The translations under genes and the position numbers were made by a program. From assembly GCF_038738535.1 (NCBI RefSeq), contig NZ_CP046128.1, forward strand, positions 434,001 to 498,000: a DNA stretch of 64,000 nucleotides, written 5' to 3'. Source of the DNA: Bacillus pumilus. GTDB taxonomy: Bacteria > Bacillota > Bacilli > Bacillales > Bacillaceae. Shown here piece after piece: positions 17,986-53,679 of the stretch; within the stretch, counting starts at the first letter, position 1; every line of letters begins with the position of its first letter. The notes beneath the pieces are model-generated. The model did no database searches. It worked only from the letters and a program-made list of their open reading frames with translations, and had not been told where the DNA came from.

Positions 17986-18325
17986 GACATAATGAGAAGC
18001 AATAGAGCTTCTACTTGATAAGAACGAGACGCTGTCAAAGCGAACAACTTATTCTTTTCCTTCTGCACCCGCCCCCCTATAAAAGCGGAAGAGTGGAAAA
18101 AAGACGTTTTGATTTACAATTCACACTGGCACGGCTTCGGAGCCGTAAGGACGAATGAGAGGTAGGGCTTTCGTTGTCTTGTTATCCAGAACTTCCATGG
18201 CGTTTACTTTCAAACGTAGGTTCACTCGGAACACATATGACACACTGATATGATCGAATCTTAATTCATACACTCCGTAACGGAGATCACACATTGATTA
18301 TTTATTTGCATGATAAAAGCAAGGA

Positions 18326-35029: not shown

Positions 35030-35046
35030 CTCTTTTATAAAAGACC

Positions 35047-35175
35047 AATCGCTGAATCATTTCGATGAGCGGGGGAACCAATTGTGGTGGAAAGCACCAC
35101 GTGGGGTGAATCCTTTTTAGGTAGGGCAAAGTCTCATGCGCCCGAATCCGTCAGCTAACCTCGTAAGCGTTAAAG
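35047..35175 (+). promoter_or_regulatory. c-di-AMP riboswitch (ydaO type) of kimA
   Basis: All conserved ydaO-class blocks are present in order: CGCTGAATC, GCGGGGGAACCA, GGGGTGAATCC, TAGGTAGGGC, CCGAATCCGTCAGCTAACC and TCGTAAGCG. The outer stem pairs the first and last blocks. Binding of c-di-AMP favours the terminator downstream (35206-35243), shutting off potassium import when c-di-AMP is high. This is the founding example of the class. Confidence 0.97.
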
Positions 35176-35205
35176 AGAGCAAAGACCAACCTGTGATCTA
35201 AACAA

Positions 35206-35296: not shown

Positions 35297-37123
35297 ATGT
35301 ACAGTTTGATGAAGCGTATTTTAATTGGTAAACCATTAAAATCACAGGCAGCAGGAGAACAAAAACTATCAAAAATCAAAGCGTTGGCATTATTGTCATC
35401 AGACGCATTGTCATCAGTTGCATACGGTACAGAACAAATTTTAATTGTTCTTTCCGTGGTTAGTGCAGCAGCATTTTGGTACTCACTCCCGATTGCAGGT
35501 TGCGTATTAATTCTTTTAATGGCGTTAATTCTATCTTACCGCCAGATCATTTATGCTTATCCAGAAGGCGGAGGGGCATATGTTGTCTCTAGCAGAAACC
35601 TAGGTGAAAAACCAGGATTGATCGCTGGTGGGTCATTGCTTGTAGACTATATTTTGACTGTAGCAGTGAGCATATCAGCGGGTACTGATGCCATCACATC
35701 GGCTTTTCCAGCACTATATCCATATCATGTTTTGATCTCAATTGTATTGGTCATCGTGATTATGGTGCTCAACCTTCGTGGATTGACAGAATCGGCATCT
35801 ATCCTGGCTTATCCTGTATACTTGTTTGTATTTTCACTCCTTATCTTAATTGGAGTAGGTGGCTTCAAATTATTAACAGGAGGCGTACCGCCAGCACCTG
35901 AGCATGCAGCGGTAGGCACACACGTACAAGGCATTACATTATTTCTGTTATTAAAAGCTTTTTCATCTGGCTGTTCTGCTCTGACTGGAGTAGAAGCCAT
36001 TTCAAATACCATTCCATCCTTTAAAAAACCAGCTGCTCAAAATGCAGCAAGAACATTATTGATGATGGGTGGATTACTAGCCGTTTTATTTGTGGGGGTC
36101 ACATTGCTTGCATTTGGTTTTGGCATCTCACCAAAGCCAGAAGAAACGGTTGTATCACAAATTGCATCAGACACTTTTGGACGTACGTTTTTCTATTACG
36201 TGATTCAGGCTGTCACAGCGCTAATCTTAATATTAGCGGCAAATACCGGCTTTTCAGCCTTTCCTTTATTGGCTGTCAATTTAGCAAAGGATAAATATAT
36301 GCCGCGTATGTTTACTGTAAGAGGAGACCGGCTTGGTTACTCCAATGGCATTATCTTTTTAGGCGTAGCCTCTATGCTGCTCATTTGGTTGTTTGATGGG
36401 AAAACAGAACACCTCATCCCGCTATATGCTGTCGGTGTGTTCATTCCATTTACCCTGTCGCAGACCGGCATGTGTGTGAAGTGGATTCGAGAAAAACCGC
36501 AGGGCTGGAAAACGAAAATGCCAATCAATATAGTCGGAGCACTGATTTCTTTTACAGTTTTCATGATACTCATTTTGACCAAGTTCCATCTCGTATGGCC
36601 AGTATTTGTTTTCATGCCTATTGTTCTATTTATCTTTCATTCCATTAAAAAGCATTACCTGTCTGTTGGAGAACAACTGCGTTTATTGAATGAAACAGAG
36701 CCTGTTGAGATTAAAGGGAATGTGGTCATCGTACCGATAGCAGGTGTAACACGTGTCGTCGAACAATCTGTCCAATATGCAAGGTCTTTGTCAGATCAAG
36801 TCATAGCGGTTCATGTATCCTTTGATAAAGAAAAGGATAAGAAAATTGAAGAGGATTGGGAAAAACTAAACAGCGGTGTACGGCTTGTGATGCTGCATTC
36901 TTCCTATCGAAGCCTCATTCACCCGCTTGATAAATTTCTTGAAACCATTGAGGCAAAAGCAAATGCGCATCAATATAAAGTGATGGTGCTCGTGCCTCAA
37001 TTTATCCCGAAAAAAAGATGGCACACCATTTTGCATAATCAATCTGCCTTTTTATTAAGATTCCGCCTTTTATGGAAGCGTGATATTGTGGTGGCGACCC
37101 TCCCATATCATTTTAAAAAGTAG
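35297..37123 (+). CDS. kimA: High-affinity potassium importer KimA
   Basis: A 608-residue APC-superfamily K+/H+ symporter. ATG 35297 follows AAAGGAGCGGG. About 12 membrane helices (30-470) with LLSSDALSSVAYGTEQIL in TM1, YPEGGGAYVVSSRNLG, GSLLVDYILTVAVSISAGTDA and LTGVEAISNTIPSF. The cytoplasmic C-terminal domain (about 470-608) has a USP-like start, VVIVPIAGVTRVVEQSV, and in B. subtilis binds c-di-AMP, which inhibits transport. The gene is thus controlled twice by c-di-AMP: riboswitch and protein. Length is within one residue of B. subtilis KimA. Confidence 0.97.
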   Translation: MYSLMKRILIGKPLKSQAAGEQKLSKIKALALLSSDALSSVAYGTEQILIVLSVVSAAAFWYSLPIAGCVLILLMALILSYRQIIYAYPEGGGAYVVSSRNLGEKPGLIAGGSLLVDYILTVAVSISAGTDAITSAFPALYPYHVLISIVLVIVIMVLNLRGLTESASILAYPVYLFVFSLLILIGVGGFKLLTGGVPPAPEHAAVGTHVQGITLFLLLKAFSSGCSALTGVEAISNTIPSFKKPAAQNAARTLLMMGGLLAVLFVGVTLLAFGFGISPKPEETVVSQIASDTFGRTFFYYVIQAVTALILILAANTGFSAFPLLAVNLAKDKYMPRMFTVRGDRLGYSNGIIFLGVASMLLIWLFDGKTEHLIPLYAVGVFIPFTLSQTGMCVKWIREKPQGWKTKMPINIVGALISFTVFMILILTKFHLVWPVFVFMPIVLFIFHSIKKHYLSVGEQLRLLNETEPVEIKGNVVIVPIAGVTRVVEQSVQYARSLSDQVIAVHVSFDKEKDKKIEEDWEKLNSGVRLVMLHSSYRSLIHPLDKFLETIEAKANAHQYKVMVLVPQFIPKKRWHTILHNQSAFLLRFRLLWKRDIVVATLPYHFKK

Positions 37124-52141: not shown

Positions 52142-52170
52142 TTTACAATTTTCTAAAAATAAGGTATAAA
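52142..52170 (+). promoter_or_regulatory. SigA promoter of the symporter gene
   Basis: TTTACA, exactly 17 bases, TATAAA. The transcript begins just before the c-di-AMP aptamer. Confidence 0.7.
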
Positions 52171-52193
52171 TAGTATGAAAATATCATAATAAC

Positions 52194-52312
52194 CACACGC
52201 TTAATCCTTCTAAAGGAATGGGGGACCCACTATTTTGGGGTGAATTTTTCTCTGTTGAGAAAAAAGGACATCTCTTCGTCCTAACCCGTCAGCTAACCTC
52301 ATCGGCGTGAAG
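52194..52312 (+). promoter_or_regulatory. Second c-di-AMP (ydaO-type) riboswitch
   Basis: Conserved blocks in order: CACGC-TTAATCC, GGAATGGGGGACCCA, GGGGTGAAT, CCTAACCCGTCAGCTAACC and TCATCGGCGTG. CACGC (52196-52200) pairs with GCGTG (52305-52309) as the outer stem. Compared with the kimA aptamer in this window, the signature segments are almost identical, while the variable stem is replaced by TTTTTCTC/GAGAAAAA. A terminator follows at 52341-52378, so it should act as an OFF switch. The controlled gene is a dicarboxylate/amino acid symporter, not a potassium transporter. Confidence 0.9.
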
Positions 52313-52340
52313 AGAGTAAACAGTGGTACGTGTATGGAAA

Positions 52341-52378
52341 CAAAGACCCACGAGAAAACTCTCTTGTGGGTCTTTTTT
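52341..52378 (+). terminator. Riboswitch expression-platform terminator
   Basis: GACCCAC-GAGA, AAAC loop, TCTC-TT-GTGGGTC followed by T6, between the aptamer and the TTG start of the symporter. Confidence 0.88.
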
Positions 52379-52399
52379 GATGAGGAAGGGGAGATTTTA

Positions 52400-53641
52400 T
52401 TGAAGCTAGCGACGAAAATTATTATTGCCTTGTTTGTAGGTGCAATCACAGGACTACTGCTCAACATTTTTGCTCCGAATGTATTCAAAGTGTTAGACCC
52501 TTATCTATTTACGCCTCTAGGTCAAATCTTCTTAAACTTGATTAAAATGTTAGTAGTGCCGATCGTATTCTTTTCCATCACACTAGGTGTAGCAGGTCTA
52601 GGTGATCCGAAAAAGCTTGGCAGAATCGGCGCAAAAACCATTACTTATTTTCTACTTACTACTACTTTTGCCATCATCATTGGCATTTCATTGGCCTTAT
52701 TGATCAAGCCGGGAGCATTCGGTAATTTTGATACGAAAGCGGCTGATTATTCCGCAGAGGAAGCCCCATCAATGGCAGAAACACTACTCAACATCATTCC
52801 AACCAATCCAGTCCAATCTTTAGTTGAAGGGAACATGCTTCAAATCATCGTCTTTTGTGTGTTTTTAGGCCTTGGCATTGCCATGCTTGGGAAGAAGACG
52901 GAAGGTTTGCTAAAGCTGTTTGAACAAGGAAATGAATTAATGATGTTTCTTGTCGGCATAGTGATGAAGTTCGCACCGTACGGAACATTCGGTTTGATCG
53001 CAACCGCAATTGGCAGCCAGGGATTTGATGCGATGAAAGCGATGGGCCTCTATTTCTCGGTCGTATTAGTTGCGCTCGTGCTGCATTTCTTCCTGACTTA
53101 TGGGTCAACTGTCGCCATTTTAGCGAAGCGAAATCCGATGGCGTTTTTCAAAGGATTTTCTCCAGCAATGGTTGTCGCATTTAGTACATCAAGCAGTAAC
53201 GCAGTCCTGCCAGTCTCAATGGAAACAGCCCAGAAACGTTTGAAGGTGCCAGAGCCGATTTCAAGCTTTGTACAGCCGCTTGGTGCAACCATTAATATGG
53301 ACGGCACAGCGATTATGCAAGGGGTCGCGACCATTTTTATCGCACAAGTATATGGAGTTGAACTGACGCTTGTCCAAATGCTGACGGTTGTCTTAACGGC
53401 TGTCTTAGCAAGTATCGGCACAGCGGGTGTGCCAGGAGTTGGGCTCATCATGCTCGCTATGGTACTGAACTCTGTGAATCTGCCTGTTGAAGGCATTGCG
53501 CTCATCCTTGGCATAGACCGCTTATTAGATATGGCAAGAACCGTTGTCAATATTACAGGTGACGCCGCATGTGCGGTGATTGTGACAGAAACGGAGAAAA
53601 AACACGAGAAAGACGCAGCATCACCGAACCTATCCATGTAA
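52400..53641 (+). CDS. Dicarboxylate/amino acid:cation symporter (DAACS family)
   Basis: A 413-residue DAACS carrier related to glutamate/aspartate transporters. The frame opens at 52307 inside the riboswitch, but TTG 52400 with GAAGGGGAG upstream gives the normal start KLATKIIIALFVGAITG. Blocks: LIKMLVVPIVFFSITLGVAG, the serine-rich hairpin FSTSSSNAVLPVSMETAQ, the substrate/cation motif GATINMDGTAIMQG, hairpin 2 ASIGTAGVPGVGLIML, and TM8 GIDRLLDMARTVVNITGDA with Asp and Arg. The Arg plus NMDGT pattern suits acidic amino acids or dicarboxylates. It has no counterpart between ydbI and ydbJ in B. subtilis. It is governed by a c-di-AMP riboswitch. Confidence 0.93.
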   Translation: MKLATKIIIALFVGAITGLLLNIFAPNVFKVLDPYLFTPLGQIFLNLIKMLVVPIVFFSITLGVAGLGDPKKLGRIGAKTITYFLLTTTFAIIIGISLALLIKPGAFGNFDTKAADYSAEEAPSMAETLLNIIPTNPVQSLVEGNMLQIIVFCVFLGLGIAMLGKKTEGLLKLFEQGNELMMFLVGIVMKFAPYGTFGLIATAIGSQGFDAMKAMGLYFSVVLVALVLHFFLTYGSTVAILAKRNPMAFFKGFSPAMVVAFSTSSSNAVLPVSMETAQKRLKVPEPISSFVQPLGATINMDGTAIMQGVATIFIAQVYGVELTLVQMLTVVLTAVLASIGTAGVPGVGLIMLAMVLNSVNLPVEGIALILGIDRLLDMARTVVNITGDAACAVIVTETEKKHEKDAASPNLSM

Positions 53642-53646
53642 TGTAA

Positions 53647-53679
53647 AAGAAGGGCTGACTCGATCAGCCCTTTTTTTCA
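53647..53679 (+). terminator. Intrinsic terminator
   Basis: AAGGGCTGA, loop CTCGA, TCAGCCCTTTTTTT after the symporter gene. Confidence 0.92.

Follow-up and report, generated by a model that had tools for sequence, protein, structure and literature searches.

In the 64,000-nucleotide stretch of the Bacillus pumilus genome analyzed here (contig NZ_CP046128.1, positions 434,001 to 498,000; hereafter the window), the gene of a carrier of the DAACS family is preceded by an aptamer of the c-di-AMP (cyclic di-adenosine monophosphate) riboswitch class ydaO/yuaA and by an intrinsic terminator, and the tail of the aptamer is complementary both to an aptamer loop and to a segment of the terminator. We consider it highly probable that this leader is a transcription-terminating c-di-AMP OFF riboswitch controlling a single gene for an importer of acidic amino acids. 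The linkage of riboswitch and gene and the residues of the substrate site were likewise observed directly; ligand binding, the direction of control, the substrate, the coupling ion and the physiological role are predicted from these features.

The whole window was scanned with Rfam 15 (cmscan at gathering scores). The aptamer, at 52188–52321 on the forward strand, as are all elements of this unit, matched RF00379 over the full length of the model (positions 1–134) with 101.1 bits and an E-value of 7.4e-23, the gathering score being 38 bits; an E-value of this order (7e-23) rules out a chance match. A first-pass annotation of the window, made from the sequence, had proposed a SigA promoter, a ydaO-class aptamer, a terminator and a DAACS carrier at 52142–53641. 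The limits of this range coincide with the -35 box and with the stop codon of the carrier gene, and all four elements were recovered. The promoter (52142–52170), which has a counterpart in Bacillus licheniformis, consists of the -35 box TTTACA (52142–52147), a 17-nt spacer and the -10 box TATAAA (52165–52170). The terminator hairpin (52342–52375) is the best fold of its stretch, at -21.8 kcal/mol, and is followed by a Shine-Dalgarno sequence read by us as GGAAGGGGAG (52384–52393) and by the open reading frame of the carrier (52400–53641; 413 aa, TTG start), a predicted Na+-type aspartate/glutamate importer. A further terminator lies directly 3' of the gene (53646–53677), so the carrier gene is probably transcribed alone; a general scan had listed this hairpin on the other strand. 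A generic promoter and terminator consensus scan of the window listed neither the carrier promoter, because it demands T at the last position of the -10 box, nor the leader terminator.

Family, substrate and ion coupling of the carrier

The carrier matched PF00375 with 452.4 bits (cut-off 27.9) over positions 1–386 of 387 and is one of five DAACS genes in the genome. Its closest solved chain was PDB 9BGZ, the reconstructed ancestor Anc-Int (E 9.7e-123), followed by the archaeal GltPh. To both proteins it is related by transporter family and by the residues of the substrate and Na+ sites, but it lacks R276 of GltPh and has P295 and Q327 as in Anc-Int. Residues were compared in 81 family rows (80 loci from named genomes and the window) and are numbered by their equivalents in PMC12668577. 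The equivalents of R397, D394 and N401 were invariant in all 81 rows; as described in that paper, R397 contacts the side-chain carboxylate of the substrate and D394 its amino group. By these residues the carrier would be of the type that selects acidic amino acids.

The same source gives the signature of the Na+-coupled clade (Ext-Na) as [S/T]92-93, N310, [M/S]311, [D/E]312 and [D/E]405. All 81 rows had it complete (T, T, N, M, D, D). The other four DAACS proteins of the genome carry I or V at position 92, L (in one case C) at 311, N (in one case H) at 405 and E at 279, which is the H+ signature described in PMC12668577 or close to it. Since the carrier alone among the five has the complete Na+ signature, the gene that the riboswitch precedes encodes the only Na+-type member of the family in this genome, and the invariant Na+ sites favour a predicted symport.

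It is possible, though a good deal less probable, that the switch works as proposed while the carrier is a cation-independent aspartate/glutamate exchanger, so that c-di-AMP would gate the exchange of acidic amino acids. Anc-Int, the closest solved protein, is described as such an exchanger (PMC12668577), and the equivalents of P295 and Q327, which are tied to uncoupling, were found in all 45 riboswitch-linked rows (among the 36 others, position 295 is P in 33 and S in 3). Reversing this pair restores Na+ coupling in Anc-Int, yet according to the authors the pair is required for uncoupling but does not suffice for it (PMC12668577). The pair also extends beyond the riboswitch-linked carriers, with Q327 present in four of four and P295 in three of four of the other DAACS proteins of the genome. 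Moreover, the Na+-site residues, invariant here, are all kept by just 16% of the intermediate clade according to PMC12668577.

An unlikely alternative is a working riboswitch on a carrier of some other substrate, for example C4-dicarboxylates or a neutral amino acid. Residues alone prove no substrate, and the protein passed neither the GltP equivalog model (NF008440, 306.5 bits against a cut-off of 638) nor that of the C4-dicarboxylate carrier DctA (NF002461, 263.6 bits against 513), for which reason no equivalog name was assigned to it. On the other hand, D394, retained in the carrier, has been lost in the DctA-type paralogue of the same genome. The initial label of a dicarboxylate/amino acid symporter thus holds in its amino-acid part, and the acidic type can be specified, while its C4-dicarboxylate part was dropped. 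A plain C4-dicarboxylate symporter was rejected on the missed DctA cut-off together with the acidic amino-acid residues R397, D394 and N401.

One tail and two partners in the leader

We compared 46 leaders (44 named loci, the window and the B. licheniformis genome G012), which contain 39 distinct triplets of loop, tail and terminator. In the window the tail GAAGAGAG (52309–52316) has two mutually exclusive partners, the aptamer loop CTCTTC (52272–52277), with which it can form a pseudoknot, and the terminator segment ACTCTCTT (52358–52365), with which it can form an antiterminator. Complementarity of loop and tail was present in all 39 triplets. The tail uses the same letters in both pairings, whose energies ranged from -6.4 to -12.8 kcal/mol for the loop-tail and from -4.9 to -14.4 kcal/mol for the tail-terminator duplexes. 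RNA-Puzzles has described a pseudoknot in its crystallised ydaO aptamer (PMC5393176), and the sequence printed there shows, as judged by eye, the matching complementarity of loop and tail. In addition, CCAC at 52193–52196 may form a closing helix with GTGG at 52323–52326; this helix is possible in 21 of the 46 leaders, all of them from Bacillus in the strict sense.

The partners change in concert between leaders (GAAGAG:CTCTTC, TTGAGAG:CTCTCAA, TGTGGG:CTCACA). The loop-tail duplexes had a mean energy of -9.39 kcal/mol with their own partners and of -7.83 (sd 0.22) with swapped ones, none of 2000 swaps being as good; for the tail-terminator duplexes the means were -9.23 and -8.67 (sd 0.24), with 29 of 2000 swaps as good, although the kinship of the leaders makes both tests overstate significance. 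When the letters were shuffled on one side, the means fell to -4.39 (loop-tail) and -6.18 kcal/mol (tail-terminator), and in neither case did any of 200 shuffles reach the real value. A leader whose tail can pair with only one of two partners at a time has the architecture of a switch, and it fits a predicted transcription-terminating OFF switch.

The following mechanism can be hypothesized. At high potassium the level of c-di-AMP would be high and the aptamer bound; the bound aptamer would hold the tail in the loop-tail pseudoknot, so that the terminator would form and silence the gene. At low potassium the free tail would catch the CTCTCTT of the terminator as it emerges, RNA polymerase would read through and the gene would be on. 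The carrier would then import aspartate and/or glutamate, most likely with Na+, as the counter-ion for potassium brought in by KimA.

There is only a slight probability that the element acts in another mode, by control of translation or as an ON switch. Translational control has been proposed for a relative in C. glutamicum (PMC9960051), and the antiterminator of our model is the less stable fold. However, a hairpin with a U-run, that is, an intrinsic terminator, lies between the aptamer and the start codon in 46 of 46 leaders, and the Bacillus members of the class for which reports were seen are OFF switches acting by termination.

It should be mentioned that the leader appears to have been recorded as a transcript in B. 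licheniformis. Table 1 of an RNA-seq study lists, among strongly transcribed 5' untranslated regions, BLi_r0356 (542296–542520, 225 nt), a 'ydaO-yuaA leader' of the gene BLi00536 (PMC3871023). We found two RF00379 matches in G012, a kimA-type one (525352) and, 17 kb away, that of the carrier at 542499–542640, the start codon of the carrier lying at 542715. A shift of 194 nt places BLi_r0356 at 542490–542714, where it begins 7 nt past the -10 box and ends one base before the start codon; the thiamine pyrophosphate (TPP) leaders of the same table fit this shift only through their printed lengths, the printed starts disagreeing by 41 nt. Because the shifted coordinates fit both the -10 box and the start codon, BLi_r0356 is taken to be the orthologous leader. 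The product of BLi00536 is not named in the main text of PMC3871023, and the passages on the leader's tag or on BLi00536 do not discuss the leader.

Conservation and loss of the riboswitch-carrier pair

To describe the distribution of the pair within the genus, the results of searches with RF00379 and with the carrier in the same 44 genomes were joined. An orthologue of the carrier was found in 34 genomes, in one of them (G007) broken, and an RF00379 match lay upstream of it on the same strand in 34 of 34 cases. The distance from the riboswitch to the matched start was 69–83 nt, and 105 nt in the broken orthologue. More than half of the riboswitch rows of the genus (54 of 88) were located elsewhere than at the carrier; none was reported at the carrier site in the 10 genomes that lack the carrier.

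These ten genomes were compared with Bacillus spizizenii or with the window. In G035, which matches B. subtilis 168 in length, and in G032 the unit is missing from just past the -35 box almost to the gene's end, and a decayed 3' piece of the gene is left. In G025 the gene has suffered a large internal deletion and 22 nt are missing from the aptamer, and the RF00379 match is gone. A short stretch of G003 resembles the 3' end of the gene by eye, and BLAST alignments show no remnant in G013, G002, G016, G026, G031 and G040. Switch and gene thus tend to vanish together. The broken orthologue of G007 (L166, G007:C1:396000-399000) is the one case of an intact riboswitch match outliving the gene: the match to the carrier is split in two there, one part containing a stop, and the riboswitch upstream still scores 89.8 bits. 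A relic whose model match persists with no action on the gene would find support in this riboswitch above the cut-off before a broken carrier, but such a relic is very improbable and can be set aside in view of the linkage in all 34 genus cases, the co-varying pairings, and the absence of an RF00379 match in genomes that have lost the gene, the damaged aptamer of G025 included. Conserved linkage, joint loss and co-variation likewise support the claim of the first-pass annotation that the riboswitch acts on this particular gene.

The pair extends beyond the genus. Among 397 genomes drawn from the order, 253 contained a carrier match at E <= 1e-100, and RF00379 lay directly upstream in 17 of the 20 order loci L050–L069, three of which come from the genus. 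We also analyzed the best 80 of 189 relatives of the carrier from named genomes, the closest belonging to B. australimaris (97%), B. safensis, Bacillus sp. and B. xiamenensis (96% each) and B. pumilus (95%). A riboswitch directly upstream was revealed at 44 of the 80 loci (19, 12, 12 and 1 per 20 in list order), among them loci from Metabacillus, Peribacillus, Priestia, Cytobacillus and Mesobacillus records. Some genomes have two copies of the carrier, one switched and one unswitched (L116 and L114; L117 and L109). Presence or absence of the riboswitch changes five times on the tree of the 80 named loci and the window; with four outgroup paralogues added there are six changes against a shuffled mean of 28.6, and none of 500 shuffles was as low, near-copies adding to the clustering. 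So few changes point to an old pairing with a handful of gains or losses, and the tree is silent on which.

Several results weigh against the proposed switch or limit its generality. The swap signal of the tail-terminator pairing is weak. In the window leader the terminator is more stable than a forced antiterminator by 5.5 kcal/mol, and in 14 of the 46 leaders folded with the antiterminator forced its advantage ranged from 0.0 to 14.1 kcal/mol. Since the terminator is the stabler fold, the switch must be kinetic, with the antiterminator winning by timing, or must use other pairings. Further, a riboswitch directly upstream is lacking in 36 of the 80 closest named relatives, which shows that other lineages use the carrier unswitched. 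Finally, among 91 genomes sampled from the phylum, which gave 62 DAACS rows (E <= 1e-40) in 32 genomes, a search for RF00379 within 2 kb upstream revealed the pairing in the window's own genome only, in a join that used riboswitch rows only from genomes with a DAACS row and under the stricter filters of RNA searches above 40 genomes. As the window gene alone among these 62 rows had a match, this sample gave no sign of a recruitment of c-di-AMP riboswitches to DAACS genes across the phylum.

Other observations were made in the same searches. In a plasmid collection all matches to the carrier had less than 60% identity. Carriers from records titled Chryseobacterium sp. ISL-80 (L109, L117), Pseudomonas sp. 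ISL-84 (L139) and Paenibacillus sp. FSL R5-0490 (L128) nest among those of Bacillaceae on the tree, and these records are probably misnamed. A TPP riboswitch lies about 1.2–1.8 kb downstream, on the same strand, of ten unswitched carriers (L109, L112, L126, L132, L134, L136, L141, L142, L143 and L153).

Potassium genes and other c-di-AMP targets

A second c-di-AMP riboswitch (RF00379, 101.2 bits) is located in the window at 35040–35184 on the forward strand, in line with the two switches noted initially. It precedes the open reading frame 35297–37123, which we take to be kimA after the B. subtilis gene of that name. The whole genome (3.61 Mb, 2 contigs) has exactly two RF00379 matches, the kimA-type leader and that of the carrier. 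The gene upstream of the carrier passes the DctA cut-off of NF002461, and by synteny with B. subtilis the carrier gene presumably lies between ydbI and ydbJ. Elsewhere in the window, at 18101–18186 on the reverse strand, there is a full-length match (81 bits) to the small RNA family BsrC (RF01410).

In relatives, carrier and potassium genes may adjoin. At two Metabacillus loci (L104, L123) a second RF00379 match lies just 3' of the carrier, ahead of genes read from the sequence as ktrA and ktrB, and the same arrangement was found at L115 and L102 by the riboswitch match and a KtrA match. The stretch from the second riboswitch toward ktrA, and ktrB where the locus reaches it, spans 4532–5436 in L104, 4659–5593 in L115, 5145–6022 in L123 and 6710–7205 in L102. 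L104 and L115 have a carrier without a riboswitch of its own, and at L117 the riboswitch-carrier unit is closely preceded by a further riboswitch and a gene resembling ktrB. In total, ktr genes were found within the flanks of about 3 kb at 7 of 80 loci. A wider test was made on 50 of the 80 loci, picked to span genera, and their 49 genomes, with five rows of 61–65% identity counted as controls: 14 of 53 carriers, and 2 of 74 other DAACS genes, lay within 12 kb of a KtrA homologue (Fisher p 9e-5), a p-value that is indicative only, since the test was made post hoc and the 14 cases fall in few clades. KtrA homologues with one internal stop were seen at G541:C193:75613-76263 and G547:C3:650856-651455, in the genomes behind L108 and L116. 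The proposal that anion uptake is coupled to potassium status, made in the first-pass annotation, is helped by the ktrAB neighbourhood, from which we infer that such a coupling may exist. A broader hypothesis, to which we give an even chance, is that in much of Bacillaceae c-di-AMP directly and jointly gates the uptake of both ions of the main cellular salt, through separate riboswitches on the potassium importers and on a dedicated aspartate/glutamate carrier of the Na+ type, which in some genera lie side by side, and that the carrier half was lost with a scar in the B. subtilis 168 lineage and is therefore unseen there.

Among known systems, the riboswitch of kdpFABC in B. thuringiensis (PMC6488665) likewise consists of an aptamer followed by an intrinsic terminator and is described as a transcriptional OFF switch relieved at low potassium, but its target is a potassium pump. 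In B. methanolicus a ydaO/yuaA leader stands before an amino acid permease (PMC4342826); its target is thus an amino-acid transporter as here, known by its permease annotation. The kimA (ydaO) and ktrAB riboswitches of B. subtilis belong to the same RNA family; kimA is reported to be turned off by c-di-AMP and ktrAB to be repressed. They control potassium importers, whereas the switch of the window controls a predicted acidic amino-acid carrier.

The present analysis adds the identity of the target as an acidic carrier with the Na+ signature, the conservation of the pair in Bacillaceae, the tail with two partners, the proximity to ktrAB and the scar left in the genome that matches B. subtilis 168 in length. 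The target class is already known, amino acid transporters being listed among targets of c-di-AMP riboswitches (PMC7266159, PMC9960051), and so is the leader itself, as a row in the B. licheniformis table (PMC3871023). B. subtilis free of c-di-AMP is poisoned by glutamate and by potassium, and the authors describe the route by which c-di-AMP acts on the expression of AimA, the glutamate importer, as yet to be uncovered (PMC7857571). In L. lactis, c-di-AMP is reported to lower the glutamate and aspartate pools via potassium (PMC8092236).

If our interpretation is correct, a riboswitch acting directly on an aspartate/glutamate carrier would connect the potassium signal to the counter-anion in a single step. 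The scar in the presumed 168 genome offers a possible explanation of why the model strain would not show this control of the carrier. Thus, in several relatives of Bacillus, the uptake of potassium and that of its anionic partners could be turned down together.
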